This document shows positions 1,401 through 42,145 of a stretch of 64,000 nt of DNA, piece after piece. Source of the DNA: Dioscorea cayenensis subsp. rotundata (taxonomy: Eukaryota > Streptophyta > Magnoliopsida > Dioscoreales > Dioscoreaceae); contig NC_052477.1 of the NCBI RefSeq assembly GCF_009730915.1, positions 5,358,611-5,422,610 of the forward strand, in the 5' to 3' direction. The position numbers and the translations under genes are program-made. Position 1 is the stretch's first letter. The number at the start of each line of letters is the position of its first letter. Below the pieces are notes generated by a model. That model worked only from the letters and a program-made list of their open reading frames with translations, had not been told where the DNA came from and did no database searches.

Positions 1401-1469
1401 GAAGATGCAGTTTTTGAAGAACTGGGTTGTTGTTCACTAGGCGAGAGCCCACCGAAGGTGCTGACGTGG

Positions 1470-1890: not shown

Positions 1891-1895
1891 CCATG

Positions 1896-2429: not shown

Positions 2430-2434
2430 CCATG

Positions 2435-2845
2435 TGCGAATATAGCCATTACCCGCAAATAGCCCATCTTCTTGTAGCTGGTTCCACCATGTTAGTGCAT
2501 AATCGATAATTTCAAGAGATGCTAGGTTTACCCTTTTTCATCAGAAAAACCATGGATCTTGAAAATTTGATCACACCTCGCCTCACACTCCAAGTAAACT
2601 TTGGCATCCGCTTTGCTGCTGAATGGTGGTATGCTCATCTTGATCTTCGCCATACTATCAGGATCTTCTCTATCTCGGCGACCGTGAGGAAGACCTTCAT
2701 TGTTGGCAGGGCGTGGAAATTGCCGATGTCCATGACCAACATGACTGGGGTCATGATGGTTATGATGGTCATCAAGCCCACCTCGGGTTGGTACACGCTC
2801 GGAGAGGGTCCGGTCAATAGTCTCACGTAGGATATGGTGGCCCGA
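2435..2845 (-). pseudogene. Ty3/gypsy gag, N-terminal half
   Basis: The minus-strand frame reads ETIDRTLSERVPTRGG, a His/Gly/Arg-rich stretch (HHNHHDPSHVGHGHR), then MSIPPFSSKADAKVYLECEA, SDEKRVNLASLEIIDYA and LTWWNQLQED. The PPFxGKxDPxxYLxWE and VxLAxxEFxxYAxxWW pattern is the start of plant gypsy gag. It is broken at 2434 by the solo LTR and resumes at 1890. The 5' LTR adjoins directly at about 2846, so the usual primer-binding site and leader are deleted. Confidence 0.8.
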
Positions 2846-3820
2846 TCTTTACTGCGTAGGATCTAGTTGTGAATAACCGGTAATTGACGCGACCCATACG
2901 TTGGGGAGAGACGATTCAAAGCTTCAAGAACTCCAACCCGCTGTCCGAACAGTCGCAGAACCACAAACCAAAAACTAATCTAGACAAAACGCTTGAAAGC
3001 GTAGAGCATGAATTAGGAGAAAGCCTAAACTTTCTTCTCGGGAATCTGGGAGAACTCACAAGAGCTATGGTAGTAAGACATGTCTTATTTCGTGGATAAT
3101 AATCAAAGTTTGATGCTCCAAGGGAGAAGGTACAAGGCTATTTATAACCGACGGGATACAAGAAAACTATCTTATTAAAATTGGCTAAGGAATCAATCTA
3201 AAACTAGTAAATTAAAATTTGCTAGGAAAACAATCTAAAAATAGGAAAATAAAATTTGCTAGAAAATCAATCTAAATATAGGAATAGTATCCCTCAGTAC
3301 TGTAGCACGTGAATATGGTAGGTGGAATTTCTCATCCTTAAACTTGGAATAATGGATTTCTTGGTTGATTGGGATTTGATTTTGGTTCCTTCTTGAAATT
3401 GGGCTGGTTTAGGAAAGAGATATTTTGGGCTGATTTGTCATAAAAGGAAACCGTATCTCCTTCTTTTTGTGGGGGTCAGTAAAGATAGGCACAATTTCCT
3501 TCATGGACGTGAATGTGAGTGTGAGGCCCACATGTGGCATAGCTCCAAATGCTTCTCTCTTGCTATCCTCTTGTTTAACTAAGTCTGGAATTATGTCCTC
3601 ATTTCAAGTATATGTAAGTACAATTAAGGTAGAATAAATTGGAAAGACCACCATTTCAATATAATTTAAGAATAAGCTTAAGTTAGCATTCACTTGGTTT
3701 TGGATTTGTTTAGCACGGTTTCATGTAAATGGTCCTTAATATGCTTCCTCTTCTATACCAACTGAAGTATTATTACCATCCGTAGGTGATGTAGTTGTCA
3801 TGGGAGTGATATCCTCATCA
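2846..3820 (-). mobile_element. Ty3/gypsy 5' LTR of the element at the left edge
   Basis: Homologous over its whole length to the LTR at 7698-8740. It begins (minus strand) TGATGAGGATATCACTCCCA at 3820. The minus strand carries a TATA element, TTATAAATAG, near 3133-3145, expected for U3. The pol tail that overlaps the LTR in this family is also present in decayed form (GPF-R motif, near 3690-3740). The inner end lacks roughly the last 45 bp compared with the 7698-8740 copy. On the other side the LTR abuts Ty1/copia gag sequence, so the gypsy element inserted into that older copia element. Confidence 0.8.
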
Positions 3821-4521
3821 GTTGGTCATCTTAAAGTACATGATTTCATCACCGATGCGGGGAACGACAACGTTTATGATCGAGGCACATATCATCCCGT
3901 TGTTCTTGATCCATTCATGACCACCATGCATTATTGATCTCATCCAACTTAATAAGAAGACCAAAGAAAGGATACTTGGTGCTTCCTACATGTTCACCCA
4001 GCGCCTCCCAGCGGCGATGTCACCTTCGAACTTCCTGATGCTGAGACCATGTCTTTATGAACCCAAAGCTACAAAACTCATCAAACGGAGACAAGAGGAG
4101 TCACACCATCAAGAACTTGCACACAACGACACCATCACATCTACCAAAGGATGTGGAATGTGGTAGACAGGTGGTGCTACTTTGCCCACTAAGGAAGGAG
4201 ATAGTGGGGATAGGGCTTCGGAAAGATGGCATAGGGAAAGAAGCACTACACCTAGGAATCAACAACATGAAAACTTTGTTTTAAATTCTCCTTTTCCGTA
4301 TTGGTATCGGGACTAAGAAGAATGGTTAGGACAACAAACATCCATCTCGTTTGTACTTTGGATATCCATATAACCATCAAAGACCGTTAAAGTGACTAAT
4401 TCCTGAAAATAGGGGGCGTTGAGTACAAAGAAATTGTTGGACATGGATTGGGGAAGGAAATGGTGGGTCTAGGGCTTCTGAAAAAATGGGTCCAGGGACC
4501 CTGTCTAGGGTCATTTCTCTA
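3821..4521 (-). pseudogene. Ty1/copia gag remnant and leader (duplication copy 1)
   Basis: Minus strand 4010-3821 matches, with substitutions, the copia gag at 9938-10180: the PRIG-EIMY motif and the preceding KLDE region are recognisable. 4013-4521 corresponds to the untranslated leader at 10190-10520. The rest of this copia element is cut off at 3820 by the gypsy insertion. No open frame survives. The short plus-strand frame across 4057-4284 is incidental. Confidence 0.7.
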
Positions 4522-4719
4522 ATACAAATTCAAAAATAGGAACTAATTTTCTTATTGATGGATGAGGCAAGGGTCTCTTTGTATAGCGAGAGACCCAAGC
4601 AAGAACTAGGAACAAAGCAACCATACATAGAAATGAGTTGGAAAGGAAAAAGAAAGAGAGGGAAAGTCCAAATAAGGATATATAGTTGTCTCTTTTTGGT
4701 TTCCGACTAGTTTCCAACA
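4522..4719 (-). mobile_element. Ty1/copia 5' LTR (duplication copy 1)
   Basis: Reading the minus strand, the LTR starts TGTTGGAAACTAGTCGGAAA at 4719 and runs about 200 bp, through CTTGGGTCTCTCGCTATAC and AAGAGACCC, to the leader. The flank at 4720-4724 is ATATT. In the second copy of the block the same LTR (10521-10712) has the same flank, followed by the same A/T-rich sequence. Length and sequence style are typical of short plant copia LTRs. The inner end in this copy is degraded. Confidence 0.75.
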
Positions 4720-4941
4720 ATATTAAATCAAAAATTCAAAATTCAAAAAGGATCGATTGCATTAATAATACATAACTCAAATCAGCCATATTATAATAAA
4801 AATCCAATCTATCACATATTACAAATATGGGTCAACCTTAAATTTTTCTTATTTTCCTTATAATTATATACCATTTAACCAAATATTTAGTTGGAACACC
4901 TAAGATGAATTGCGAAAATCATCTCTTAGGTTTATTTGATC

Positions 4942-5033
4942 TTTAGGAAAAAGGTTTTGATGGATGTTTGTAATTACACCACCCTTAGCATCATCTAAAA
5001 ATTTTTCAAAATCTTGTTCAACCACTTATCATT
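4942..5033 (-). pseudogene. Histone H2A C-terminal fragment (copy 1)
   Basis: The minus strand encodes NDKWLNKILKNF, then in a shifted frame DDAKGGVITNIHQN. This resembles the H2A segment around NDEELNKLLG..TIANGGVLPNIH. It is an orphan tail directly abutting the plus-strand H2A fragment at 5030-5190, with no matching N-terminal part next to it. Recognisable but frameshifted. Confidence 0.7.
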
Positions 5034-5515
5034 TAAGAGGGCGAGCTTTGAGTTCCCAGTTAGCAAGGTTACTCAATACCTTAAGGCTGGCAAGTATGTA
5101 GAACATATTGACGCTAGTACATCTATTTATTTCACTACCGTCCTAGAGTATCTTGTTGGCGAGGTATTTGATCCATTTCTTTCTAGTCTTAAGATTTGTC
5201 ATTTCTCTGTATACGTGGGTTTTTATGTTATTTTATTTATTTTTTTAGAACAAACGATTAGGATGGACACCCGATAAGACACCACTTTTAGTGATTGTGA
5301 TAGATTTCAAAAGCTTCTTCAACTCCTTATCATTTCTAATTGCAAGTTGGAGGTGTCTACACAAATCTTTTTATAATTGGCAAGCCATATCAAAGGATCC
5401 CAAAAATAAAAAGATTTTACTGAGGCACATCCATCTTGCAATAAGAATTGATAAGGGTTTGAACAAGCTTTTAGAATTTGTCACGTACATTCACTAAGGG
5501 TGGCGCATGTATTGT
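5030..5515 (+). pseudogene. Histone H2A gene copy, plus strand, split (copy 1)
   Basis: 5030-5190 encodes KRASFEFPVSKVTQYLKAGK, then YVEH, STSIYFTTVLEYLVGEVFDP. This is the H2A core (RAGLxFPVGR..xLKAGKYAERV..PVYLAAVLEYLAAEVLEL). After an intron-like stretch and an opposite-strand insertion, 5378-5515 encodes ISKDPKNKKILLRHIHLAIR, then DKGLNKLLEFVT (H2A: ARDNKKxRIxPRHIQLAVRNDEELNKLLGxVT). Many core residues are replaced (for example G-R to S-K, A to S/T), and the tail is frameshifted. It lacks the first ~20 residues and a promoter. A degenerate genomic copy, not a retrocopy, because the intron position is kept. Confidence 0.85.
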
Positions 5516-5800
5516 CAAACATCCATCCAAATCATTCTTCTAAAAAGCAAATAAACTAACATAAAATAAAAACCCATGTATATAGAATAATGGAAACTCT
5601 TAACCTAGCAAGCAATGGAAGAAATACCTCACTAGAAAGGTACTTTAGGATGCTAGTAAAATAAATAGAAGTACTAGTATTGATATGCTCAGTGTGCTTT
5701 ATGGCCTTAAGGCATCGAGCATCCTGCTAACTGGGAACTCGAGACTAGTCCTCTTAGAACAAGAAATAGACTTCTTATCCTTGAGATTGTTGCAACCACT
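5030..5800. repeat. Imperfect inverted repeat built from H2A fragments (copy 1)
   Basis: The left arm (about 5030-5370) reads H2A N-part (+), intron, H2A C-part (-). The right arm (about 5375-5790) is its reverse complement: C-part (+), intron (-), N-part (-). For example TTAGTG..AAAAGCTT.TTCAA..CTTATCA at 5285-5335 pairs with the reverse complement of 5410-5495. Arms look about 75% identical in the part I compared. The transcript of either strand could fold into a long imperfect hairpin of histone sequence. Confidence 0.75.
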
Positions 5801-5850
5801 AATCTTAGTTTTTTTTCCCAAAAAGTAATGGAGATGCTTAGATGTAGAAT
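5240..5850 (-). pseudogene. Histone H2A gene copy, minus strand, split (copy 1)
   Basis: On the minus strand, exon 1-like sequence (about 5829-5630) gives the basic N-terminal tail and the start of the fold. After an intron-like stretch (about 5620-5520), exon 2-like sequence at 5367-5240 reads [20 protein letters not shown], then [15 protein letters not shown]. This is a clear H2A C-terminal half (RHIQLAVRNDEELNKLLGxVTIAxGGVxPxIHP). The plus-strand C-terminal fragment lies between the two parts, so the two opposite copies are interlocked. The upstream sequence keeps a TATA box and CCAAT box. The start codon seen in copy 2 is not preserved here. Confidence 0.85.
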
Positions 5851-5960
5851 CACAAATTCTAGAAAAGTGTTGTTATTGATAGAGAGACATCAAGAGAAGT
5901 TGAAATCCCAGAAAGAGAAAAAAGATTTTGTGTTGAGTTCTACAATGAGGAAGAATGAGG

Positions 5961-6010
5961 GAGTTTATATAGAAGCATTACAATTAATTCAAAGGTCACT
6001 CTCATTGGCT
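5961..6010 (-). promoter_or_regulatory. H2A-type promoter: CCAAT and TATA boxes (copy 1)
   Basis: Read on the minus strand: CCAAT (complement of ATTGG, 6004-6008), then about 33 bp further TATATAAAC (5963-5971), then a ~130-nt leader with AACTCAACAC and CTTTCTGGGATTTCAAC before the H2A start region. The same arrangement is at 11924-11973. This supports origin by DNA-level copying of a whole H2A gene, including promoter and intron. Confidence 0.55.
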
Positions 6011-6309
6011 TGAAAAAAAGTTAATGAATTTGCTGGTCTGGACCAAGCCATGCTCCTTTTGATGCGTGTGAAAAATTGTTGACCAAACAAAGTTTTTGTT
6101 TACATGTATAACCTTTGAAAGTTGTCAAATTATTTAATTTCCTATATTTGAGCAAATTTTAACCAGGCGATCCTTGAAAGATATTGAAATTACTCACCAT
6201 AACCATTCTAATTTCATACTTCTTTTGTTTCAAATTATTTACCACTTTAGGTAAATTTTAATTCTAAATTATTTTTTACTTTCTCATCACTATCGCTGGA
6301 GATGATGAG

Positions 6310-6785
6310 ACCACCGCCATCTTCATCAATCTTGCCATGAGTTGGGATGCATGATCAAAGCTTTGGAGAGTAAACTCAAGAACAACATCCTAATGGAGAT
6401 AATGCCAATCAAAAATGTCAAGTTCATAGACAAAGATAATGATTCGCCTAATATTATTCAAGAGGATGAATTTATAGAAGTAGTAAATAATGTTAAAGAA
6501 GTTGCTACCTTGCCTTCCTATAGAGATCATTTGGTAGGAATTAAAGATAAGACATCATAGGATGAATTTCCGTTGATAATGGTGATATTTTATACCGGAG
6601 AGTGAATATGGTAATTATGAAGCCATGGACGAATGTTGTGAGTGTCAAACTCATGGGTCATCTTGTTAGATACAAAATACTTTTACAATAGAATGCAGGA
6701 GATGTGAATGCCTTGAGCGTATATAAAGTATAGATATTGATAATAACTTCTTATTTCAACTATCATGTGAGAAAATGTGATGGCA
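6310..6785 (+). pseudogene. L1-type LINE ORF1 remnant (copy 1)
   Basis: A degraded match to the DUF4283 region of plant LINE ORF1. It shares sequence with 12260-12910, where PWTNVVIVKLMGH and DIDNNYFF can be read across frames. This copy keeps the EKPWTNVVSVKLMGH-like segment near 6620-6660 and the AYDIDNN-like segment near 6730, but it has stops and a deletion. An open stretch at 6342-6560 has no recognisable domain of its own. Confidence 0.55.
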
Positions 6786-6789
6786 ACCT

Positions 6790-7697
6790 CACTGAAGCCT
6801 TGTTTGGATTGGCTTTTAAGATAAGTGTTTTTTTTAAGTTTTGTAGAAGTACTTTTAAAAAAAGTGCTTTTTTAGAGTAAGTTAAGTGCTTTTTTGTATG
6901 CAGAAGTGCTTTTATATATATGAAGTTGTTTGGATGTGGATTTGTAAAAGCACTTTTGGATGTGGCAAATTACTAAAATGGGCATTCTTTGAGTTTTTCT
7001 TGAGTTACTATTATATATTGATTTTTTTAACTATAAACAAATCACTTATAGAATTCAAACAGAGGTAAAGAATGAAGCACTTTATGACACATAAATTAAA
7101 AATAAAAAATAAAAGAAAAAAAAGAAACTAGCATATCATTCAAGCTCTAACCATTTCGCATATTCACATTTATTCGATTAATTTGGTATAATACAAACAG
7201 TAAAAAAAAAATAGCAGCATCACATAACATACATTGTAAATTTACAAACTAAGCAACCTATTCCAAATAAATGAAAAGGGGAATAATAATAGGGTGGAAC
7301 CTGCTTTACGGGCTTTTAAGCCATTTATCATTCACAACAATGGTTAACATCCTATAACAATAAGCAGAACAATCGGGTGATTCATCACTTTACATAGCTT
7401 TGGATGATGCATCACTTTACATAGCTGCTAAACCAGCCACTATATTAGTAATGCACACACAACTAAAGGCAATAGAAGACTGCAATTTCCAAACACAAGC
7501 CTAGTTTAGCCTTGATGAATGAGTAATATTGATGTTATATATACTGCAACATGTAAAATTCCTTTCCTTCAATTAAACGTCATCCAATTTACTACAACAT
7601 GTAAAATTACTGCAAAAGAAAATGTAAACATCAAAAGAAACTTATTGCAACATGTAAAATTCCTTTCCTTCAATTAAATGTCATCCAACTTACCAAA
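6790..7697. other. Intergenic; MITE-like sequence only
   Basis: 6797-6990 has GTTTGGATTGGCTTTTAAG followed by repeated AAGTGCTTTT blocks, in the style of hAT/Harbinger-derived MITE ends. I found no matching second terminus, only GGGCTTTTAAGCC near 7312-7324. At 7545-7680 a phrase with CAACATGTAAAAT and TTCCTTTCCTTCAATTAAA occurs twice. No gene seen. Confidence 0.35.
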
Positions 7698-8740
7698 TGA
7701 TAGGCTCCAACTTGGTGAAGAAGAAGAAGATCTAAATGATGGCTCGATCTTTACGGCGTAGGATCTAGGTTGAGGGATGACTAGCTGTGAATAGCCGGGG
7801 ACGAATACGACTCATACGTTGGGGAGAGACTATCCGAAGCTTCAAGAACTCCGACCCGCTGTCCGAATAATCATAGAACCAAAAACCGGAAACTAACCCA
7901 CCCAAAACGCTCGGAAGCATAGAGCATGAATTAAGAGAAAGCCGAAACTTTCCTCTCATGAATCTGAGAGAACTGACAAGAACAATGGTAGTAAGACAAC
8001 TCTTATTTCGTGAATAATAATCAAAGTTATATCTTTCAAAATAGAAGGTACAAGTCTATTTATAGTCGATATAAACTTGGGATACAAGAAAAAGATCTTA
8101 TTAAAGTTGGCTAGGGAATCAATCTAAAAATAAAAAATGAAAATTTTCTAGAAAAAAATCTAAAAATAGGAAAATAAAATTGGCTAGAAAATCAATCTAA
8201 ATATGGGAATAGTATCCCACGAGTACTGTTGCACGTGAAGATGGCAGGCGAATCTCTCCACTCTTAATCTTGAAATATTTGATTTCCTGGTTGATTGGGA
8301 TTTGATTTTGTTTCCTTCTAGAAATTGGGTTGGTTTAGGAAAAGGATATTTTGGGCTGATTTATTATAAAGGAAACAACATCTCCCTTTGTTTGTGTGGG
8401 GCTAGCGAAGATAGGCACAATTTCCTTGGACGTGTACGTGAGTGTGAGGCCCACATCTGGCAAAGCTCCAAATGCTTCTCTGTCGTTATCCTCTTGTTTG
8501 ACTAAATCTAGAATTATGTTCTCACTTCTAGTACACCTAAGTACAATTAAGGTAGAAGAAATTGGAAACACCACCATTTTAATATAATTTAAAAATAAAC
8601 TTAAGTTAGCGTTCACTTAGTTTTGGATTTGTTTAGCACGGTTTCGTATAAATGGTCCTTGATATGCTTCCTCTTCTATACCAGCTGAAGTATTACCATC
8701 CGTAGGTGGTGTAGTTGCCATGGGAGTGATGTCCTCATCA
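7698..8740 (-). mobile_element. Ty3/gypsy LTR, full length (1043 bp), apparently solo
   Basis: Starts TGATAGGCTCC and ends GTCCTCATCA (TG...CA). On the minus strand it carries the end of pol, which overlaps the LTR in this family: MATTPPTDGNTSAGIEEEAY, then QGPFIRNRAKQIQ (the GPxTRxRAK motif). It then has a TATA element, CTATAAATAG, near 8054-8065. Flanks are CCAAA and CTTAA, so no target duplication is visible. The right side abuts copia RNase H, and no gypsy internal region is attached. Either a solo LTR with eroded flanks or a recombination product. Same family as 1896-2429 and 2846-3820. Confidence 0.85.
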
Positions 8741-9340
8741 CTTAAGAATAGTAACATGCAAATCCACTAGTAGCAACCGTACCCACGTTAATTTTGCTGT
8801 TGCTTGCGCCATGGTCTTGCACTCACTCTCAACACTAGAATGAGAGACAACTGCCAGTTTCTTGCTCTTCCATGTGATAAGGTTGCTTGCTAGATAGGTA
8901 CAAAATCGAGCAGTGGACTTTTTATCAAAAAGAGAGCTTGCACGGTCAACATCTGTGTAAGCAACCAGATTAATAACATTGCTTTTAGAAAATAGTAATC
9001 CTATCCTGGGTGAGGACTTAATGTACCGAAGAACCATTATAGCAGAGTCTAAGTGAGTCTAAGTAGATTTGTTCATGAACTGGCTCAGTTTCCCCACTGC
9101 AAGTGACATATCTGGATCTGTAATAGTCAGTTATAATAGCTTCCCTATTAGACTTATGTACCTCCGTATATCAACCTCCTCGTAATTGCAGTCTTATTTA
9201 TATAGCATAAGGTCGATCAAAATATTGCAGGTTTGAATCCCAACGGTATAGTCTCCTTCAAAAGATGCATATTTTCTCTTTGAGAGAATAATTCCTTTTT
9301 TGCTGTGGGCAATCTCAATTCCCACAAAGTACCTCAGTGG
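8741..9340 (-). pseudogene. Ty1/copia RT C-terminus and RNase H
   Basis: Minus strand 9340-9200 reads DPLRYFVGIEIAHSKKGI then ILSKRKYASF, the conserved end of copia RT (GxLxYFLGIEVAxSxxGIxLSQRKY). Then 9037-8738 is open for 99 codons: VLRYIKSSPRIGLLFSKS, YTDVDRASSLFDKKSTARFC, LITWKSKKLAVVSHSSVESE, MAQATAKLTWVRLLL. This is the copia RNase H with D, E and S/T-rich motifs in place. It is cut at 8740 by the gypsy LTR. A frame loss separates the two parts. Remnant only. Confidence 0.9.
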
Positions 9341-14654: not shown

Positions 14655-16559
14655 GTTTGCTTAGAGGTATTTGAAACTATAATTAACTTCAAATACCCTA
14701 TTCTTGAAATACCTTGTTTGGTTTGTTGACTTTAAAAAAAATTGTTCAACTTCAAATATCCCCATGGATGTATTTTGACTTACGGCAAAAGTGGGCATAA
14801 GTCCAAATCCTTGTAATTGGAAAGCTTCACATGATTGCTTGATAGTTTTGGGGCCCGATGGTTACCCCACACCATCTCCATCTTCAACTCAGGTATTTCT
14901 CATCACTTCATCTACTTCATCATCTCCAAACTTTTTTTCTTTATTTATTGAAGCAATCACAGATCATGCCGTTTCTCCTTCTCTCCGTAAGTCCTATCAT
15001 TTTATTTTTTTTCATGCAACTTCTTTTTTTACTGAATTTAAAAGATGTTTTTTTAAAATCTTGTAGACCTAAATTTGTAGATCTAAAGCTGCATGACAGT
15101 TATCTTCATTGTTTCTCTTTCATCCTCTCTATATGATATGTTATTTTATTTATTTTTTTTGTGATTTTTTTAATTTAAGATATTTGTATAAACTATTGTA
15201 GATCTAATGGTTATATTCATCAATTTCACTCGATAGTTCTCATCTATTGAGGTTAAAGATATCTTATCTTGATTGATATTTAAAATTTTTATGTGAAAAT
15301 TTTGATAATTATATGGTGGTTTTTTTTTAGTAGTGTTTGTTTTCTCTCTTTGGTATAATGATATGATAGCTTAATTAGTGTTAATATGGCGATCTCTTTT
15401 TTAAATACGGATATCAATGTTAAATCAATCCTTTTTAATGTTCATTTACTTTGAGTTTGAAGTTATTATGCACATAAGAATTACATCATTTGTCATTATG
15501 TGTACTAAATAAGTAACAGAAATTATATGTTTGGTTTGAAGCTTCCATGAAGTTCATTTATTATAATTTTGGAACATATTTCTGTTGAAAATTATGCTAT
15601 ATTTTTGTTAATTTTAATTTTTAGTCAAATGATATATTCCCCATTTGTAATGGAGTTCAATTATTGTCGATGTTGTGTGGGTTTTTAATGCAAATAGGAG
15701 CCTTAAGAAATTGACACAACATGTAGAAGGGAGCTGCTAGTGATCATCTATTATGTAGACTATTTCAGCCTCAAGTTTAGGTCTAATCAGTTTTTTTGTT
15801 GCCTAGCATATTTTACAATGTTTTTTATAAACAAATGACATGGGCATTATCAACTAGAATGACATGATAAAACAATAAACTCTTTCAAAGGATCTCCACC
15901 ACCACATAGTGTAGCCTTTATCAAACCTCTCTATTATAAACAAGGCATTCATCTACTCTAGATTGTAAAGTTTTTTTCATGAACTAGTTTTCTTGTTGTA
16001 ATTATTAGTTGTTTAGTGTTGTTAAAATTGAGCTACTAGTATGTTATAATGCTTTGATATATTCTACCTTTATATAAAATCTATCACTTTTCTAAGGATG
16101 CTCTCTGACTTAAGTCATACATTCTCATGTGATCATTCTGATTTTTTATTCTCTTTTGATGTACGCCTATTGATTGGGTTGCTCTTGTGCATGTATAGCC
16201 ATATAATGTTTTTTATTTAATTTTCTTCTATTTTAAGAAGAATGAACAAGTGATTTTGTTTATTGCATATACATGCCTCAACCTTCAACTTAACTATTTG
16301 TTATTGTGCTAAAGGTAGTATAGTATTATAAATATTGCGTTTGATAAATATTTGTACTAAGATATATGTACATATGTTAATGTATTAATTCCAAGATATA
16401 TCTATGTATGACATGCATAAAAAATAATCAACATATTGCATTAGATTTTAATCTTTGTGTTTTTAAAATTGTAGATGCCCATGAATGACAAAAGAGAATT
16501 TGTATGCCATGCGGACTATATTTTTAGCTGTAGCTTATGCAGTCACTTTGCTTTTACGT

Positions 16560-17700
16560 AGCAAAAGACCCAGAGTTTGTAGAGAACCTTTGTGAAGTCG
16601 ATTAGAAATTAGAGAGCAATATTTGTCCAGGCTGGTGGATGGCAATGAGACGAAAAGGTCTTATGAGAGATACATTACATATTACCATAAAAAAAATAAC
16701 TATTGATGTTCCTCCACACTATAGGACATAACCAATGCAATCTCATACTTGGGCATAACTTTCTTATGCCTGGTGAGACTATTAATAGGTATTTCAATCA
16801 TGTGCTTTATGCAATTGGGCAATTGCATGATGAGTACGTGCATCCACCTAGTACACAAACGCTTACATACATCGCATTGAGGGCTACATTATACCTTTAT
16901 TTCAGGGTAGTGACACATTTTTCTACTTGTCTTGAATTTACTACACTAGAAACAATTCTTAGTTAAACTATATTAAAGATAGGATTGTCTTGAAACTCTA
17001 GATGGGACCCATATCAATGCTTCTATTCCTACATATGAAGTTGCAACATTTCGGGGATGAAAACCATACCCTACACAAAATGTGCTTGCTACTGTATACT
17101 TTAGTTTACATTTTACCTATGTCATCACTGGATGGGAATGTTTAGCACATGATGCCCTAGTCTTAGGTGATGCACTTGAGAGGTCAAATGGCTTATTAGT
17201 CCCTAAAGGTATCTATTTTGGCGTAGTTTGCTATAGATTGACATACGGCATTAGTCTAATCATTATAATTTTATAACTTTCATATTTGCTTTTTCTTAGG
17301 AACGTATTACTTGGTCCATGCCAAGTATGCTACAAGACCAGGTTTTATAGCCCCTTACAGGGGGTGTTAGGTACCACCTCAAAGAGTTTCGCTCATGAAC
17401 ACCTGCAAACTATAAGGAACTTTTTAATCTTCACCATTCCTTAGCTCATACAACAATTGAACATGCATTTGGTTCTCTTAAAGGCCGCTTCAAAATTCTC
17501 GTGTCTAGATCATTTTTTCCTATTCAAAACTCAGGCTGAACTAGTCTTGGCCACGTGCGTTCTACATAATTATATATTGAGTGGGGGTGAAGACGTGTTT
17601 AAACCACCCGAGGGAGAATGTACTCCGCATCAGCCATCCTCACAAAGTAACACAAGAGAGCAAAGAGAAGAGGCCCAATAATGAATGGGTTGCACACCGA
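16560..17700 (+). pseudogene. PIF/Harbinger transposase (DDE_Tnp_4 family)
   Basis: Pieces in several frames: MFLHTIGHNQCNLILGHNF, PGETINRYFNHVLYAIGQLH (16703-16900), LDGTHINASIPTYEVATFRG (16996-17055), VYFSLHFTYVITGWE and HDALVLGDALERSNG (17090-17200), then after an intron TYYLVHAKYATRPGFIAPYR (17303-17362) and TIEHAFGSLKGRFKILVSRS. The first Asp (LDGTH) and the Glu (IEHAFG) of the catalytic triad are present. The second Asp (normally LVDA) is His, codon CAT at 17317-17319. Frameshifts and stops are also present. Inactive. Confidence 0.88.
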
Positions 17701-18095
17701 GAAATGATTCCACTCGATATGTGGGCAAATAAGTCGATAATTACCTTTTTTTAACTTTATAATAAAATATTTTTTTTTGGACCATGAATTGTACTATTAT
17801 TTCTAAGTTGACAAGTTATTTTGATATGTACTCAAATAAATTCTATGTTTCCTATGAATATTGATGTATAAGACAAGGGCTAGATTTTGAATTTATCTAG
17901 AATATGTCCATTTATTCAACATATTAGACACTTTACATGCTCAAGTTGAACATCTATATTTGTGGTTAAATCATTCCAACAAATTTAAATATAATTAAAA
18001 TAAATTATCACGCCAACAATAAGCCAAACAACAAGCCAAACATACTAGCATGTAATAATTATCCATACTCACTTTGGAAGTGTGGTTAAATCTAG

Positions 18096-18215
18096 GTATA
18101 ATACCCTAGTTGGTCCCTCTACTTTTCTCTCTCTTCTCTTTTGGTCCCTCTACTCAGAAATGCTCCCGACTAGTCCCTCTACTTTTGAAAATGTGCCCAC
18201 TTAGTTAAAAATGCT
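18096..18215 (+). mobile_element. Half copy of a GGTCCCTCTAC-type MITE
   Basis: TATAATACCCTAGTTGGTCC followed by CTCTACTTTT.TCTCTCTTC, GGTCCCTCTACTCAGAAATG and AGTCCCTCTACTTTTG. It matches the left half of the complete palindromic MITE at 26778-27076. The right half is missing. It lies between the Harbinger transposase and its Myb-like partner. Confidence 0.7.
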
Positions 18216-18330
18216 CCCAACCACTCATCCATACTCACTTAGTTGGTATAATTATGCTATATTTTGTCCATTTGTGAAATTTCATTCTATTACATGTAAT
18301 TCTATCTTTTAAGAGAGTTTCAATTCTATC

Positions 18331-18880
18331 TTGGCCAAATATAGAATGGACAGCATGAGAGCATCTCTGGATAGCCAAACATCAATAGTAAGAAGCTCTA
18401 ACAAGAGACCAGGTGGCAATAAAAGATGGACACCCACTGAAAGCCGCTACTTTATAAGATTCAAGGCTTCCCAAGTAGAGCAAGGCTTCAAAGTGGATAA
18501 AGGCTCCAAACCTCAAGCATTTGATGCTGCAATTAAGGCAATGAAAGATGAGTTCGACATCATTGTTACTAAATCGAATGTGTCCAACCACCTAAGGACA
18601 AGAATTAAAAATCTAAAAGAATTAAGTGGAATGGGTTGGGATGATAGACTGAAAATGATAATCGTAGGAGAGTTTGAGTATAAAAACTTTATTAATGTAT
18701 TAATTTACTTGGAAGCAATTTTTATTTATGGTTTCTTTTAATTTTGCTTAAGGTAGTTTTTACTTAAGACCTATAGTGATTTCTTCTTGTGTACTATATT
18801 CATCCACAAGATGAACAATTCCCTAACAAGCTTATCGAAGATCATGACTTGTTGGAGCTTGTTTCCATCTACGCAGGATA
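18331..18880 (+). pseudogene. PIF/Harbinger Myb/SANT-like accessory protein
   Basis: Exon 1 is open from 18331, with KRPGGNKRWTPTESRYFIR, LVEQGFKxDKG-type sequence (VEQGFKVDKGSKPQAF) and SNVSNHLRTRIKNLKELSGM, GWDDRLKMIIVGEFEY. This is the plant Myb_DNA-bind_3 domain that accompanies Harbinger transposases (WT..ES, HVxNRLRTLK..YxxIxxLxxLSGxxWD). After an intron, 18795-18880 reads IHPQDEQFPNKLIEDHDLLE, then a stop. This parallels the HPGEEIYINKPIQDYDEM segment of the partner protein at 42563-43270. Truncated at the Mutator-like element boundary. Confidence 0.8.
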
Positions 18881-19439
18881 GATAGATTTGTCTCTTCCCC
18901 GTTGTTCTAGTTTTATTTTGCACTCTTGTACTTTGAATATTTCTTCACCCGGAAGACAATTCATGTGAGTTTCTCCACACTTGTTTTGGTTTTATTTTTT
19001 GTGGTCATGAAATTGTTGACCATGCTTTCTTCATGCAGGAAGCCAATAGATACCTTTTGCGCAGTTGCTAGGTATAGGGGGGAGGGTCGAGTCCTCCAGT
19101 TCACAGTGTCGACTCCTTGGGAGTCAATTCTAGATGAGATATGTCAAAGATGGGGGCTTGACATTAGCACTGTGAAAGTGAAGTTTGTCACACCCGATGC
19201 AAACCGAACTATTTGTCCCATTGATTCTGAAATTGACTTCAAGCGTATGTGCCAAATATATCAAATACTAAATAGCGCTGCTGTTGACCTTATTGTTGAT
19301 GCAGATGCAAATGCTGTAGACATGCCATCGTGTTCCTCACTCCCGTCGTAAATATCCTTTCTTTGCTTGATGTGTACTCATTTTATTTCATTCTTCTGGA
19401 GATATCATTTACCATTATCCATTTCAACTTATATTTGTC

Positions 19440-19607
19440 CGTTACTACTTAAAAGTTTTTATTTTCGCTTAATATTAACCGATATCGCTTAAAGGCTGCT
19501 TAAATGGAAGCGCGCGCTTTACATGCGAGAGTCATGGGGTTTGGTCCCCCTCATATCCAACCATTATTTTAATTTTTAATTCAACAAAACCCTTCTTTTT
19601 TGTGAAC

Positions 19608-19642
<35 letters not shown>

Positions 19643-19850
19643 CCGCTTACTTTCCCTGTTTACGCTTAATAATTTATGTTTTCGCTTAATATTATCCGAT
19701 ATCGCTTAAACTATTTTCTTCATCCGCTTAAGATTATACTATTTTGCTTAAACTTATCCGAGTTTGCTTAAACATTTACGATCTCGCTTAAAATTCTTTG
19801 ATTTCGCGTAAAAGTTTTTGTTTAAAGCTGTTTGATTGCGCATAAAAGTG
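19440..19850 (+). repeat. 20-bp-period array, MURA intron 1 (core CGCTTAA)
   Basis: CGCTTA-type cores lie at 19447, 19466, 19486 and, after an AT microsatellite (19608-19640), at 19644, 19663, 19683, 19703, 19725, 19745, 19765, 19785 and 19805. The spacing is almost always 19-22 bp. The sequence between cores varies. The core is read in the direction of transcription. Confidence 0.85.
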
Positions 19851-21194
19851 CCATGCTTTCACTTACACTTATCTGATTTGTACACTACAGCGAATCATTT
19901 TCGGCGAGTATGTCACTCAATAGGGGCACATTTCCACCCCATCAACAACCTTCGGGGGTTCTTGCCATCCAGCCTTCGTCAGAAGATCATGAGATTGTTT
20001 CAATGGAAGTCGGTGATCAGTTTCCTGATAGTGAACATTTTAAGGATGCACTTAGAAATTTTGCTATCAAACGCAATTTTAACTTTACATTCATCAAGAA
20101 TGACAAACAGAGAGTGACTGTCAAGTGCGCTGCTAAATGTTGTGAATGGCGTGTCCATGCGTCCATGGAAGGTAACCACGAGATGTTTAGGATCAAGACG
20201 ATGTATCCCACACACACATGTGGTGGCGGTATTGGCAAATCCTCACATCCCAAGGCATCAAAAAAATGGGTGAGTGCACGTGTTATACAAAAGCTGAAGG
20301 ACAGTCCCCTATATAGGGCTATTGACATTCAGCGTGATATGTTGCGAGACCACGGTGTCTATTTATCCTATAAACAAGCTTGGCTAGGGAAAGAGGTCAC
20401 GAAGGAGGTTCTCCATGGGAGTGAGGTGGCGAGCTATGATTTATTGATGTGGTACGCGAAGAAGGTATTAGTAACAAACCCTGGTAGCGTTGCTATAGTA
20501 GAGAATGATGGTTCCCGTTTCAAACGTGCATTTTTTGCCTTCAAAGCATGTGTCATTGGTTTCAAGACCGGATGTAGGCCATTGCTGTACCTGGATGGAA
20601 CTCACTTGCTCGGTAAGTACCGGGGGAGGGGGGGCACTTTGTTAGGTGCAACGGGAAAAGATGGGAACGATGGTTTCTTTCATGTAGCATTTGCAATTGT
20701 AGATAATGAAACGGATGCGAACTGGACGTGGTTCTTGTCAAAGATTGGAGATACTATATACGATGATGACGAATATGTGAAAATTATTACATTTATATCT
20801 GATAGGTCCAAGGGCCTTATCAATCTTTGTCGCTGAAGGTATTCCCTTCCTCACCACATGCATATTGTTTTGCGCCACTTGGAAGCAAACTTCATGAAAA
20901 GCAAATGTCGGACTTGGCAAGTCATTGAAAGAGCGGTGCTGGTCTATATTTTTTTGAGAATTGCATTTTCATGTCTTTGAAAAAGAATTCGATGATCTCT
21001 GTTGCCGATCCATTAAACACATCGGCGGATGCACATCAATGGTTGATCGCGAAATCCGATCCGGCACATCGGGCGAACTACATGTTCAAAGGTGATAGAT
21101 GGGGGAGATGTACTCAAACGTGGCGGAGTCGTTTAATGCATGGATAAAAGAGGCACACCATCTCCCTGTCACAAACATGGTAGACTCAATAAGG

Positions 21195-21540
21195 TACACA
21201 CCATTTCGCGTAACTTCATTTGTTACCGCTTAAATTTATTTCTTACCGATTGAGTTTCAATTATTTCGCTTGATATTAATTGTTTCCGCTTAATATCAAT
21301 CGTTTCCAATTACATTATATTTTTTCTGCTTACGTTTAAATTGTTTCGCGTACGTGTACTTGTTACCGCTTAATATTAGGATTTATCGCTTAAATTACAT
21401 CGTTTACGATTAAATTATAATTTTTCTGCTTAAGTTTCAAATATTTCACTTAATTTTAATTGTTACCGCTTAAGTATCAATTTTTACAATTAAAATGTAG
21501 TGTTTCCGATTAAGTTTTAATATTTCCGCTTATTATTTCA
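21195..21540 (+). repeat. 20-bp-period array, MURA intron 2 (exact register)
   Basis: Fifteen consecutive units have their core (CGCT/CGAT/TGCT TAA) at 21247, 21267, 21287 and so on to 21527, each exactly 20 bp from the next without a single indel, although unit sequences differ at many positions. Working consensus: TTTCCGCTTAAnnTTnAAT. It fills the intron between the DDE and SWIM exons. Confidence 0.92.
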
Positions 21541-22139
21541 TGACTTGTCTTTCGTACGAAGGTTTAAGCTAATGGGCATGTTGTGTCATCGACGTGAACA
21601 ATCTCAAAGATGGGAGAGACGTCTATGTCCTGTCATTCATCGAAAGATTGAGGAACTTGTTGAAGAGTCTCGCAACCTACTGGTCGGCTGTTCTGACGGT
21701 GACCATTTTGAAGTGGTTGACCAAAGAACTATTGCATCAGTTTGAACGCTCGGACATGCTCATGTCGTAGGTGGCAGGTGTATGGCATTCCATGCAAACA
21801 TGCATGTGCGGTAATACTGCAGACAAACACAAATATTCATCGATATATCGATGACTACTTTACAATGGACTCTTACCGACAAGCATATGCAGAAGCCATA
21901 TTTCCAGTACCAGATAATGACAAACCAAATGATATCAACCGCGAACTACTTGTGCGTCCTGCAATCACCAAGAAGCCAGTTGGTCGGCCAAGACGGAAGC
22001 GTCTAGAGTCACAACCATCAAGCGTTCGTGAATTACGATGTAGCCGTTGCCATGATGCTGGTCATAACCGTATATCCTGTAATGTATGGATAGCTGACTG
22101 ACTACATGATGTTATGTACATGTAGCTTGCCACAACAAA

Positions 22140-22310
22140 AGCGGTATGTTTTAATTTTAAGTGAAAACAACAAAGTTTAACTAGTATGAACCAAATTTAA
22201 GCAGTATTACCGAAATTCAATTGCTGCATGAACAAAATTTAAGCCTTATTAGCTATGTTTAAACAGTATAAATTAATTTTAACTAAGAACGATACTTTTT
22301 AAGTAGACAA
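22140..22310 (-). repeat. 20-bp-period array between the convergent genes
   Basis: In plus-strand view, TTAAG-type cores are at 22157, 22177, 22197, 22217, 22238, 22258, 22279 and 22299, i.e. every 20-21 bp. They are in the inverted orientation relative to the MURA introns and so follow the minus-strand gene. It lies in the ~300 bp between the two gene ends. Confidence 0.75.
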
Positions 22311-23184
22311 GCATATTTGAGCATGACGAACAAGCATATTAATAGTGATAGGCAAATAAGTATCTGTCCAGAACTCAAAATAGGAAAAAAGTCAAGTTAA
22401 TGAGAATGTATTGTTAAACATATCCTAACAGTTCTTTCATTGTCCGGAAGTTCGGCGACCACGGGCGATGCCATCCATCAATATGCGTGCCGCAAAACGT
22501 AGACGCAAGTGTGGAATGTCCGTCTGGGGAAGTTTTAATTTCTCGCCAGCGAGTATTTGCTCTATGAAGCGCATGACATAGACTAGACAATCGACTGTAC
22601 CCGGCTTTTGCCGCGGCAATTCCGTTCGTGTCTAAGAGGGTAAGCTTCGGCTGTGTTATCACCAAATTCAATTGCTAAACATCTATCGAATAGTTCCCGC
22701 TGTCAACAAAACATGCATCGGTCAAGCCAAACGGCGACGAAAATAGAAACAGTTTAAACGAATGAAAACATTATTTACCATGTGGATGGCATCTTGATCA
22801 TATTCTAGACTGACAGACGAGGAATGATGAATATATTCCTTCTTCACTTTATCGAGTACGAGGAGATGGAAGTGACCATGAAGTATAATAGGCATCAAGA
22901 TGACATCGACATCTGCAAACCGGCGTACAACATCCGCCATCATTAGCAATGACTCTTCTCCTGTGTGCTCTGTTGAGGACATCAAAAGAGCAAGTGGTCG
23001 GGTGATTGTTGCACGTACTTTGTAAGGGTACGGTTCGCTATTTATCTGTTCCGTGATTATCAATACATATACATCCATGACATCATCAGCGACCATTTCC
23101 TTACCTTCCAATAGAGAGTAGACACGCGCCCGAGTGGTGTATGACACATCATTCTTCCAGACATAAGTCCTACCAGATCAAAGC

Positions 23185-23390
23185 ACGCAAAATTGAGCGT
23201 AACATTGTAAATTAAGCGGAAATGTTTTAACTTAAGTGGAAACATTTATAGTTAAGTGGAAAATATTGAAACTTAAGTGCAAACATTAAAACTTATGCGG
23301 AAAAGGTAAATTTAATTGGAATAAATAAATCGTAAGCGTAAAGCATTAAATTAAGTGTAAACATTAAAACTTAAGTGATGACAGTAAAAG
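23185..23390 (-). repeat. 20-bp-period array, Ulp1 gene intron
   Basis: TTAAG(T/C)G cores (reverse complement of CGCTTAA) are at 23193, 23212, 23232, 23252, 23273, 23293, 23312, 23332, 23351 and 23371: ten units at 19-21 bp. Orientation is sense with respect to the minus-strand gene. Confidence 0.85.
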
Positions 23391-24834
23391 TAAAAAACAG
23401 GATGCTTACATGTTCATCGGACAGTTTAGGAAGTGGCTGATTGTCAGTTGTTCGACTTTATTTAATCTCATAAATCCGGCAGGACGTTTGTTCCGTGGTA
23501 CCCTAAAAGTCTTAGTAACTTGTTCAGTCGGTACCACTGCCTGTTCATCAATTGATGCCATCTCCGGCATTGGTTTTGGGATGACAATTGACGCTTCATC
23601 AGTAATTTCAGTTGATGGTTTCGCACCTGTCGACGAAGACGGTTTTGGATTCGGGGAGTCAGTGTGGATGTCCTCCAAGTTCGGTACTTCATGATGAGTT
23701 GGTGGGTCAGTGTGGATGTCCTCCACGTTTCCTAACTTCTCATTTGAAGAAGGGGGCAGATCATTTCTCAAGGATGTTAGTGATTCAATTATAGAGACCA
23801 CGTCGATATTTTCACCGACATCGACTAGTGGTACAGCGGGTGGAGATAGCTTCGCTGGTTCGGAGAAGGAAGGAAATGGACAAGATGGCACCGGTCCGGA
23901 GTGGGAATGGACGGGGGATGGTGGCGAGGGTCCGGATGGGGAGGGGATTGTGGAAGATGGTGCAGGTCCGGAGGGCGAAGGGAGTTGTAATGACGGATCT
24001 AATGCGGAGGGGGAAGGGGGTGGGGATAGTGGCTTGGTTGCGGAGGAGGGAGGGAGTGGGGATGATGAGACGGGTCCGGAGACGGAAACGGGTGGGGATG
24101 GCGCTGCAGGTGCAGATGGGGAAGCGGGTGGGGATTGCTTGGCTGGTGCGGAGAGGGAAGGGCATGGGGATGGATGCGTGGGTCCGTCGGGACGAAGTCG
24201 GGTGAAGAGGGAGTTGAGTTTGTCTTGACTTTGCCCTTTGGGGAAATTTTTGGAGGCCGTTCTTCTGGTCGGCAATCGGCTTACGAAATTGCAGACCTTG
24301 TAGATCGCCTTGTAACTGGCTTCAGAGGAGCATCATCAGAATTGTTAGATACGGAATGAGGCAATGGTTGTTTTTGCCTATTGGCAACCTTCTTCACTCG
24401 AGTTCCCTTGGTGGCCGCTTGTTTCGGCGGCAAATCCTTGGTGTCGTCAGCTATCAGTGCGACATTGGAAGGGCCACGACCCTCAATTACTTCAACTCTG
24501 GTTTGAAGTCCACCAACAGTCTCGGCCAACTTCTCAAAACCTTTCAGTAAACGTAACCCAATGTCTTCATCAATTACCCCCCTCGGTGGATTAACAGAAA
24601 CAGAACCACGTCGACCCCGACGTGGTGGGCTCATTGGTGGTGAGGGAGACCGTCCACGTTTCCCTGTGGATTTCTCCGCAGATTTTGCGTCAGGACGTAT
24701 TGTGCTAACCACTTGTTCTCCACGGTAGCTTGTCCTAACGAAAGCTTCTTCTTCGGCGTTAACCGGGGCGAGGGCAGAAAACTGTAATGTGGAAATGACA
24801 TACAGTCAAGGTAAGCAATGATACTCAAACGAAA

Positions 24835-25100
24835 AACTTAAAATAACAATAAAAAATTAATTCTTAATCGGAACCTTAAAATATTAAGTCTAAACTACAT
24901 ATTTTAACCGTAAACACTAAATATTTAAGCGAAAAAGTATAATTTTTAAGTGTAAAACCTAAAAGTTAACGGAAAACATTATTTTGAAAGTGAAAAAAAG
25001 AAAACTTAAGCGAAAACTAAATATTTTAAATGTAAACTAAAACTTTAAACTAGAAACGAATATTATTAAGCGGACACTAAATAAGTTAAGTGTAAACTAA
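24835..25100 (-). repeat. 20-bp-period array, second Ulp1 gene intron
   Basis: Cores at 24863, 24884, 24904, 24925, 24946, 24966, 24986, 25006, 25026, 25045, 25066 and 25086 (TTAAGCG/TTAAGTG/TTAACGG types), 19-21 bp apart. A shorter stretch of the same kind follows at 25945-26015, in the intron before the first coding exon. Confidence 0.85.
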
Positions 25101-26777
25101 ATACCTCTTTCCCCTCAACTGATGATAGCAATGAACCGATGGATGCTTGCTTCTTGAAACTGTTAGCCCCGTAACACAGGATCCGGGGAGTCTTACCAAA
25201 TCGCACCTTCTTACCGGTGCCAGTTACTTCGTAGAACCAAATATTTAGAGCGACAACACATCCTCGCAAGTAGCCAATGTTTGTCTTCTCACCGGAGCAT
25301 CTTGCTTGAACTCTGGCGGTCGTTTGCGGGACGTCATCCATAAGCCACTTATGTGTGGCTTGCGCCCATGCATAGCGCCGCATTGCGGGAAGATTGTCTA
25401 CATAGTCTACAAGCCTATTGGGAACAAAACATGATTAGTTTGGGAACAGCATGGTCCCCATGATGAATACCAACAATATCTTCACAAAGTTTTCTTCTTC
25501 TCCCCTCTTCCGGACTAGTGTGCTAAGAGTTTTTTTTATAGCTTCCCTATGTCTTTCATAGCTTTTCGAGAAATATTTTTCTTCAAAATCTGAATGTGGC
25601 TTTCTCTTTTTGAAAACCACTGCGTCCCCATCGCATCTGAGACCAAGAATAATGGATACATCTTCTGGCCTAAACGTCAACAAGCTCTCACCAATTTTAA
25701 ATTTTTGGGAGCACTCATCATATCTCTGCAATAGAGCATCGAGCAATCTTGTAGTACAGGTTCAATTTCCATTAACGATGCGAAAGGAGTACTCCGAATG
25801 ATTTCCAAATGTCTAGAACTCATGTTTTGCTTAACTCAGCAATCATTTCCACTATAGAGACCAAATAACACCTGTCGTTCACAAGGTTGGTTGCCATATG
25901 TCCAATACCTTCACCAAGAAGGATTAACGAACTATCAATAATATTTAAGCGAAAACTAGAAATTATAAGTGCAAACACATTATATAAATTAAAACAGTTT
26001 AATTTAAGGGGTAAACAACACAGGCAAAAAAAAGCCAACGGTAAAACTAAAACCAAAAACGTTTATATACATCATCTTCCATTCGAGAAAGAACCTAAAC
26101 TTTCCAAATTTAAGCCTGGATCATACACAACAAACAAAATTAAAAAACCTTCAATTACAAAACCCTAGAAACCCATAAGAGCGATGTAAACAAATGAACA
26201 ATCTGTCATTAATACCTTCAGGTTCGCTGATTCAAGAGTATGGAGATGGTGTCAACGAAACAACAATGAAGATCCAGGAAAGCTCTAGCAAACTTCTTCT
26301 CGATACCTTCAGTTGAACACAGGGCTTCAATGTGTGTAAGTCTTAGCATCTGAAGGGGCAAGTCTCAGAATGTGTTGAAGGGGCAACTGAGAGAAGGCGC
26401 GCACAGGAACCAGTACTCCCCTCTCAAGATTCGTGGCCGCCTAACCCGCCACTTCCCACCATGGAGAGAGAACGAAGCATTGATGTAACTGGCGGGGCAT
26501 TTCGGTCTTTTCTCCTCAAAAATCACGGTGTTAGCAACCGGAAGGACCAAATAAACATGTGTACGGAAAAGGAGGGATGAACTGTGAATATTCAAACTAG
26601 AGGGGTGTTTCTGTGAATACCTGAACTTTGGAGGGATTTTCTATTCATTTCCAGTTTTTTTAATTAATTTGGAATTATTTTGACTTGATTCTTTTATTTA
26701 TTTTGAGTTCTATATGAAGGAAAATAAAATGATGAAATATGAATATTTTTTATATTGTAGAAATTGAAAAAAAAAAG

Positions 26778-27076
26778 TATAATACCCGAATTGGTCCCTC
26801 TACTTTTCCCTCTCTTCCTTTTTGGTCTCTCTACTCAGAAATGCTGTCAAGTAGTCCCTCTACTCTTGGAAATGGTTCTATTTAGTCCCTCCTACTCTAA
26901 AATAGGCTAATTATTTGACTGTATTTTAAAGAATAGAGGGACTAGATGGGAAGAGATTAAAAGTAGAGGGGCTAAATTGGGTCATTTTCAAGAGTAGAGG
27001 GATTAGTGGGGCGCATTTCTAAGTAGAGGGACCAAAAAAAAGAGAAAAAAGTAAAGGGACCAATTCGGGTATTATA
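26778..27076. mobile_element. Palindromic MITE (about 299 bp)
   Basis: The left end TATAATACCCGAATTGGTCC and the right end GGACCAATTCGGGTATTATA are exact reverse complements. The inverted repeat continues inward with CCTCTACTTTT..CTCTC, CTCTACTCAGAAATG and AGTCCCTCTACTCTTG versus their counterparts at 26940-27050, so almost the whole element is one hairpin. It is possibly bounded by a TA duplication. A half copy is at 18096-18215. The class is not determined. Confidence 0.85.
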
Positions 27077-41764: not shown

Positions 41765-42145
41765 AAAATACGACATTCAACATTCATAGTTTAAATATAA
41801 CATAACAATTGTCCATCCAACAACAACAAAAAAAAATTAAAAATATGACATTCAACATTTATAATGCACATCAACATAATGATACACAAAAATATAAACA
41901 TGAAGCCTTGTTCATCCAAAATACGACATTGAACATTTATAATACACATCAATATAATGATACACAAAAATACAAACATGAAGCCTTGTTCATCCCAAAT
42001 ACGACATTCAACATTCATAATACACATTTTAATAATCATACACAAAAATACAAACATGAAGCCTTGTTCATCCAAAATACGACATTCAACATTCATAGTT
42101 CAAATATAACATGACAATTGTCCATCCAACAACAAAAACAAAAAA
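41765..42145. repeat. Minisatellite of ~78-bp units inside Harbinger element 2
   Basis: The phrase ACGACATTCAACATTCATAA and its variants starts at about 41844, 41922, 42001 and 42078. Each is followed by a block with ATAATGATACACAAAAATA and AAACATGAAGCCTTGTTCAT. The block AACAATTGTCCATCCAACAA flanks it at both ends (41804 and 42112). Because the unit length is close to a multiple of 3, several frames stay open on both strands. These are not genes. Confidence 0.9.

Follow-up and report, generated by a model that had tools for sequence, protein, structure and literature searches.

Arrays of short units phased at 20 bp, with the core CGCTTAA, occupy the non-coding DNA of a Mutator-like transposon (MULE) in the window, the 64,000-nucleotide stretch of Dioscorea cayenensis subsp. 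rotundata DNA that was analysed. They are probably cis targets of an anti-silencing protein encoded by the transposon family itself, a protein that would resemble VANC21 of Arabidopsis and would act by binding the arrays and causing DNA demethylation.

The element carries a transposase gene and a convergent gene for a DUF1985/Ulp1-like protein (Table 1). A sequence-only reading had assigned the arrays to two genes of one MULE, which is borne out, although the left end of the copy is missing and both genes are broken. Homology to a related element (L150, element 990-9195) starts at about 18859 in the window, and the right end is matched with 0 mismatches in 32. Pieces of the transposase gene match PF03108 (1.2e-20), PF10551 (5.8e-9), and SWIM (2.6e-11). 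In the minus-strand gene, DUF1985 is found at 25339-25701 with one internal TAA (38.8 bits against a cut-off of 35.1), as are two Peptidase_C48 pieces that fall below the cut-off (0.0036 and 0.0039). A profile of four Ulp1-like sequences matched only SENP1 and SENP2, and remotely (best E 0.0067); the position of the Asp of YYDS, which we take to be a catalytic residue in C48 peptidases, is Ser in all four. Because it is broken and truncated, the window copy can at most be a target of its relatives.

Table 1. Features of the MULE copy and its arrays in the window
Feature	Position	Strand	Remarks
MULE copy	18859..26654		about 298 bp of left end missing; right end ..TTCATTTCCAG
Transposase gene, broken	19039..22101	+	exons about 19039-19347, 19891-21193 (frame breaks), 21562-22101
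DUF1985/Ulp1-like gene, broken	22437..25905	-	
Array	19440..19870	+	transposase intron 19348-19890; gap near 19500-19640
Array	21195..21545	+	transposase intron 21194-21561; 17 units exactly 20 bp apart
Array	22140..22310	-	spacer between ends of converging genes
Array	23185..23390	-	intron 23170-23409
Array	24819..25103	-	intron 24782-25104; adjoins DUF1985 exon
Short array	25945..26015	-	upstream of minus-strand reading frame; 3 units, weakest of six

Both autocorrelation and a weight matrix confirm that the arrays are real. In the longer arrays the autocorrelation maxima are at lag 20 or its multiples, with values of 0.64 at lag 100, 0.62 at lag 80, and 0.59 at lag 20 for 21195-21540, 0.57 at lag 20 for 23185-23390, 0.55 at lag 40 and 0.54 at lag 20 for 24835-25100, 0.52 at lag 82 and 0.51 at lag 20 for 22140-22310, and 0.45 at lag 20 for 19440-19850. 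The signal is weakest in the 71 bp of 25945-26015 (0.48 at lag 19, 0.47 at lag 20). The phase is significant in both transposase-intron zones of the window copy (L120), where none of 100 Markov shuffles matches the lag-20 value. A 20-bp matrix trained on the arrays themselves (cut-off at least 5 bits) finds 63 units within them, 62 of which are on the strand that the sequence-only reading gave, and the 16 consecutive spacings in 21195-21540 are all exactly 20 bp. Outside the arrays there are 145 matches, no excess over the 136-169 seen in five whole-window Markov shuffles.

Neither MULE gene has array units in its coding exons, as had been claimed, and none of the 11 further matrix matches in 18400-26700 falls in them. 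One of these 11, at 18616, is inside an ORF, but in the non-MULE segment that adjoins the element. All four array-bearing introns have in-frame splice junctions, and two others, of 74 and 79 bp, are free of arrays. The arrays do follow transcription in their direction, yet this is indistinguishable from their pointing inwards, because the genes converge in the fully read elements.

The pattern is a family trait, in sense orientation. Pairs of CGCTTAA 10-40 bp apart number 2128 genome-wide against 44 in the reversed control, and among the first 100 listed the spacing is 18-23 or 39-40 in 99. In related families the cores are GTTTAA and TGTGTATAA, but the period is again 20 bp, the arrays occupy the same introns, and they are again in sense orientation; the count of TGTGTATAA pairs (124 against 17 reversed) is too high owing to an unrelated repeat with spacings of 22 and 25. 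With the window copy included, none of 100 shuffles reaches the lag-20 value in 27 of 30 copies for the intron-1 zone and in 26 of 30 for the intron-2 zone, while no copy of 30 has such an unmatched value in an exon zone. Intron 1 of L127 was left out because r is 1.0 both at lag 20 and at a second lag, probably through an N run; the rearranged L134 was left out too. In the introns that follow DUF1985, motif pairs at spacings of 19-22 bp are present at 24 of 31 loci, every one in sense orientation; at the other 7 the intron tested has no motif pairs. The protein P0006 (JGI, 61% identical) has the top lag-20 value among 76 proteins, a modest 0.275, and its periodic stretch is read as intron read-through with the core GTGTATAAT. 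Viral contigs gave 111 stretches, with one match each in the 80 listed, taken as chance.

Of the first 8 loci with the pattern, 5 (in 4 places) belong to the same MULE group or are short derivatives of it, another 2 match a repeat next to L134 that is rich in arrays, and 1 matched nothing. An ordinary satellite spread at random, which the sequence-only reading had named as a refuting outcome, is rejected on the association with elements and on the ordered spacing and strand. A gene-less element of 507 bp has the same ends and retains arrays. The element ends, GGGAAAATTATT and TTCATTTCCAG, are only weakly alike, and target duplications were found at L184 (TAAAATTAA) and, ambiguously in a TA tract, at L150 (TTATATATA). 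As in VANDAL elements, terminal inverted repeats are degenerate or absent and the target duplication is 9 bp long.

A role in splicing or intron-length control, as the sequence-only reading had suggested, is unlikely because the spacer and the gene-less element have arrays too, and splicing was rejected on these grounds; the two short introns without arrays also speak against it. The 20 bp unit differs, moreover, from the 21 or 24 nt of plant small RNAs. An RNA-level role of any such kind, including a source of small RNAs, is very improbable, even with the sense orientation in the tested introns and the account of tandem repeats as possible siRNA sources in the accessible text of PMC10398659. 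It is also distinctly unlikely that the arrays are sites at which the transposase, or another protein of the element, acts in transposition. Subterminal motif arrays do serve transposition in CACTA elements (Spm TnpA), and oriented arrays are found here in both halves of the element and in the 507-bp one, but many are well within it, in its introns and spacer, and not just near the ends.

Phased protein-binding sites would be the likeliest of the roles first proposed, and the DUF1985 gene offers a candidate protein. When a profile of 20 yam DUF1985 proteins was compared with the PDB, VANC21 (9lnj, 9lnk) was matched at E 9.8e-6 over 193 profile positions and was the sole sequence at E<1; a single yam protein reached only E 0.16. 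The element thus encodes a DUF1985 homologue of VANC, in the window when one stop is read past, and one yam piece matches both PMD (2.1e-10) and DUF1985 (2.4e-5). With a mean pLDDT of 51.5 in one and 51.8 in the other, the two AlphaFold2 models are too poor for a fold test; Foldseek with the first of them returned nothing at E<=0.001, VANC21 being absent.

According to the accessible text of PMC5735166, VANC21 is an anti-silencing protein that binds arrays of same-orientation motifs in the non-coding DNA of VANDAL elements, where on VANDAL21 they are dense in introns, between genes, and in the non-coding DNA of the termini. The motifs of VANC6 are different, and the targets are arranged as tandem repeats, which lengthen and shorten (PMC5735166). 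Two Arabidopsis pairs, VANDAL21 (Hiun) and VANC21, and VANDAL6 and VANC6, resemble the yam elements in being MULEs with a DUF1985 protein (PMC5735166, PMC10398659), in their one-orientation arrays of short motifs in introns and other non-coding DNA, in family-specific tandem repeats of variable copy number, and in degenerate terminal repeats. They differ in that the yam is a monocot, that its protein has an Ulp1-like domain, and that its cores are CGCTTAA, GTTTAA, and TGTGTATAA where the VANDAL motifs given are YAGTATTAY or AGTTGTCC/AC. For VANDAL21 the accessible text of PMC5735166 states no 20-bp period, and the anti-silencing activity demonstrated for VANDAL is a prediction for the yam system. 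KIU/Kaonashi MULEs also have a second gene with an Ulp1-type domain, to which the yam match is remote; the accessible part of the review describes no 20-bp phased arrays in them, but it names Ulp1 MULEs in grapevine, melon, and rice and reports that VANC genes with Ulp1 also act on non-coding-DNA motifs (PMC13317346). The MULE-Monocots group shares a monocot host and a PMD-type gene, which in some cases runs antisense to the transposase, with neither arrays nor anti-silencing described in the accessible part of PMC6446971.

Whole 20-bp units and 100-bp blocks, the latter repeating at about 80% identity, have been gained or lost between copies, and intron 2 differs in length by whole units in 7 of 9 usable copies (of 15; L129, L132, L133, L136, and L144 were excluded for artefactual distances, and L124 was not found). 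The earlier argument from the kept register against tandem expansion was in this respect partly wrong. These changes, together with a core that overall evolves no more slowly than the linker (divergence 0.114 against 0.118, core lower in 7 of 14 copies), would be expected of neutral minisatellites, that is, functionless units spread by duplication and conversion in slippage-tolerant introns. This explanation is nevertheless unlikely, given that the unrelated cores A and C have the same period in corresponding introns, all sense, that coding exons lack units, and that gene-less elements retain arrays. Within the core, and post hoc, CG changes fastest (0.176, 0.254) and TTA slowest (0.072, 0.009, 0.067), a pattern expected if methylated CG sites decay in silent copies.

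Under the preferred explanation, targeting by a VANC-like protein, the DUF1985 (PMD-like) homologue of VANC21 in intact relatives would read the core of each unit, here a T-run and CGCTTAA. With units about two helical turns apart, bound molecules would lie near one face of the DNA, which may allow occupancy to be dense and perhaps cooperative. Where introns, spacer, and leader are bound, DNA methylation would be removed locally, and demethylation spreading over the element would let the transposase and DUF1985 genes be expressed. Arrays would change length by whole units, and core and protein may diverge together, so that each family mainly frees itself. The cores A, B, and C do sort by DUF1985 lineage, with partial overlap of A and B, in that one or two A pairs also occur at 4 of the 15 B loci. 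This sorting need not mean co-adaptation, because a single element carries both the motif and the DUF1985 lineage, and shared descent may be the cause. It can be suggested, tentatively, that VANC-type anti-silencing is older than the monocot-eudicot split and has a fixed 20-bp phase in its grammar, so that the core would vary in step with the protein, whereas the spacing of two turns, the location in non-coding DNA, and the inward or sense orientation would be constant.

The main evolutionary study of anti-silencing names eudicots in its title. The experimental work, as far as the accessible texts show, is in Arabidopsis (PMC5735166, PMC10398659). What is seen here is most likely this known system from thale cress in a distant plant group, and a yam counterpart that is present in many copies, and has three core motifs in the same genome, would place it in the monocots. 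The yam families would offer natural protein-motif pairs for studying DNA recognition by DUF1985 proteins and the reason for the fixed spacing and, if the system works, it may provide a sequence-specific demethylation tool in a monocot crop.

All six arrays of 20-bp units with the core CGCTTAA that the sequence-only reading had placed in the window (19440-19850, 21195-21540, 22140-22310, 23185-23390, 24835-25100 and 25945-26015) were recovered by autocorrelation and by a 20-bp weight matrix. In the longer arrays autocorrelation is led by lag 20 or its multiples, while it is weak in the 71-bp stretch 25945-26015, and Tandem Repeats Finder also reports periods of 20, 40 and 100 bp. The matrix, built from 57 array units (consensus about nTGTTTyCGCTTAAnTTTna), finds 63 units of at least 5 bits in the arrays, spaced mostly by 20 bp and otherwise mainly by 19-22 bp. 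The strand described for them holds for 62 of the 63, and the coding exons of both genes are indeed free of matches. Outside the arrays there is no excess (145 matches, against 136-169 in five Markov shuffles). The orientation with transcription stands, but since the two genes are convergent it is indistinguishable from arrays that point inward.

The arrays lie in a broken Mutator-like element (MULE; 18859..26654) from whose left end about 298 bp are missing; a relative at locus L150 of the same genome is 8206 bp long, with a 9-bp target duplication situated within a run of TA. On the plus strand the gene codes for a MULE transposase whose top protein match, at 88% with 96% query coverage, comes from Dioscorea cayenensis subsp. 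rotundata. In the minus-strand gene, DUF1985, of which a single exon piece alone falls below the Pfam cut-off, is followed by a variable central part and, at the end, a remote resemblance to Ulp1. Introns were placed from in-frame junctions.

Introns and DUF1985 region of the element in the window
Feature	Position	Strand	Remark
Intron	18965-19038	+	74 bp, no array
Intron	19348-19890	+	543 bp, array
Intron	21194-21561	+	368 bp, array
Intron	24782-25104	-	323 bp, array
Intron	23170-23409	-	240 bp, array
Intron	22700-22778	-	79 bp, no array
DUF1985	25339-25701	-	above Pfam cut-off if read through one stop

In the Ulp1-like exon (22722-23177, minus strand), YYDS of SENP1 is replaced by HYSS or HHSS in the window and three relatives; the Asp, which we take to be catalytic, reads Ser, and the product is possibly an inactive protease. 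PIF/Harbinger-like pieces (DDE-like and Myb/SANT-like stretches, read by eye) adjoin the truncated MULE at 16500-18880. A foldback MITE-like element at 26778-27076 has arms of 39-73 nt, 81-90% complementary, with a related piece at 18091-18204, and there are a 78-bp tandem repeat (3.3 copies) at 41840-42097 and a 374-bp repeat (2.0 copies) at 47423-48157.

From 6573 candidates 125 transposase matches were scored, and the best 30, including the window copy, were taken with 1.5-kb flanks. None of 100 shuffles attains the lag-20 value in 27 of these 30 copies for the first array-bearing transposase intron and in 26 for the second, against none of 30 for an exon-internal control zone. Having common descent, the copies are not independent of one another. 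Lag 20 strictly exceeds all other lags of 10-35, except 19-21, in 24 and 25 copies respectively; the zones that fail are in L127, L133, L134 and L136 and in more distant relatives with weaker signals. The first-intron signal of L134 is due to another repeat. Among the matches listed, 18 other copies are at least 81% identical, and in 14 of the 15 examined the exact CGCTTAA cores of both zones are on the transposase-sense strand; the rearranged L134 has none in these zones. The period and sense orientation thus recur in introns of related copies, making the arrays a family trait. Nine copies were usable for measuring the second-intron anchor distance, which comes to 390, 390, 388, 390, 410, 334, 370, 370 and 395; seven of these values agree, to within 2 bp, with 390 plus or minus whole units. 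Such changes by whole units show how the register persists as linkers drift.

The 584-Mb genome has 1042 CGCTTAA pairs at exactly 20 bp and 3 such pairs of the reversed pattern; at 10-40 bp the respective counts are 2128 and 44. Among the first 100 pair places by coordinate, spacing is 18-23 in 81, 39-40 in 18 and 11 in one, with none at 24-38. Five of the first eight pattern loci (four places) belong to the MULE group of the window copy or are short derivatives of it, two correspond to a repeat rich in arrays beside L134, and one has no match. Another array-rich repeat (L134:2239-3765, also in L116) has 20-bp units with a core of about CTGTTTAAAAAATGAG and is about 83% alike between loci. A 507-bp element, L184:3601-4107, has MULE ends, a TAAAATTAA duplication and an array, with no noteworthy reading frame; such gene-less 507-bp derivatives, with MULE ends and arrays, are also present in L113, L114 and L119 (81-90% alike where matched).

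The period is shared by arrays with other cores. L152 and L153, with transposases 67% identical and the same convergent layout, carry GTTTAA-core 20-bp arrays in the equivalent introns, the spacer and the leader, those of the L152 second intron and L153 spacer being under the automatic-scan threshold. A third family, with core TGTGTATAA, was found around DUF1985 loci, in the intron 3' of DUF1985. In matrices from hand-picked segments (CGCTTAA, A, 57 units; GTTTAA, B, 94; the third, C, 47) the commonest spacing is 20 in each. Cross-scores are low between A and C (A on C arrays -2.7, C on A -2.5), with A and B nearer each other (B on A 6.3, A on B 2.7). In 24 of 31 loci (30 and the window) the intron after DUF1985 contains pairs of motifs at a spacing of 19-22 bp, every pair in sense. 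The pairs are of type B in 15 loci, C in 6 and A in 3, with one or two A pairs also in 4 of the 15 B loci.

When 20 yam DUF1985 proteins are combined into a profile, the sole PDB sequence with E<1 is the Arabidopsis VANDAL21 anti-silencing protein VANC21 (9lnj, 9lnk; E 9.8e-6, 193 positions); a single yam protein gives the same match at E 0.16. Predicted structure models were unusable. According to PMC5735166, VANC21 binds the motif YAGTATTAY and occupies introns, intergenic and terminal non-coding DNA of VANDAL21, where the bound parts carry dense motifs in a single orientation; VANC6 motifs differ from these, and VANC target repeats grow and shrink. PMC13317346 describes VANC genes with Ulp1 as KIU, and Ulp1 MULEs from grapevine, melon and rice.

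The arrays are taken as predicted docking sites of the family's own VANC-like protein, given the homology, the array anatomy, the family-specific cores and the kept period. This protein would bind the array units, its binding may lead to methylation loss, and the bound proteins might cooperate on one face of the DNA. The agreement between motif and protein lineage can be explained by linkage alone. Counting against docking sites, the core overall diverges as fast as the linkers between copies, and 7 of the 31 loci have no motif pairs in the intron after DUF1985. Among the latter, that intron of L159 gives a weak signal at 20 bp, and in L164 an array lies upstream; L154, L158, L159, L162, L178 and L181 would be a lineage that lost arrays, never had them, or has unrecognised ones.

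The abstract of a 2022 EMBO J study on eudicots reportedly names helical periodicity of the motifs and a eudicot origin; if so, phasing as such would not be new. No description of such arrays in a monocot was recognised, by title or abstract start, among the open-licence papers listed by literature searches. The observation itself is true, and protein binding, among the roles suggested by the sequence-only reading, was a good first guess. Judged by anatomy and homology, the system is a putative VANC/VANDAL representative in a monocot.
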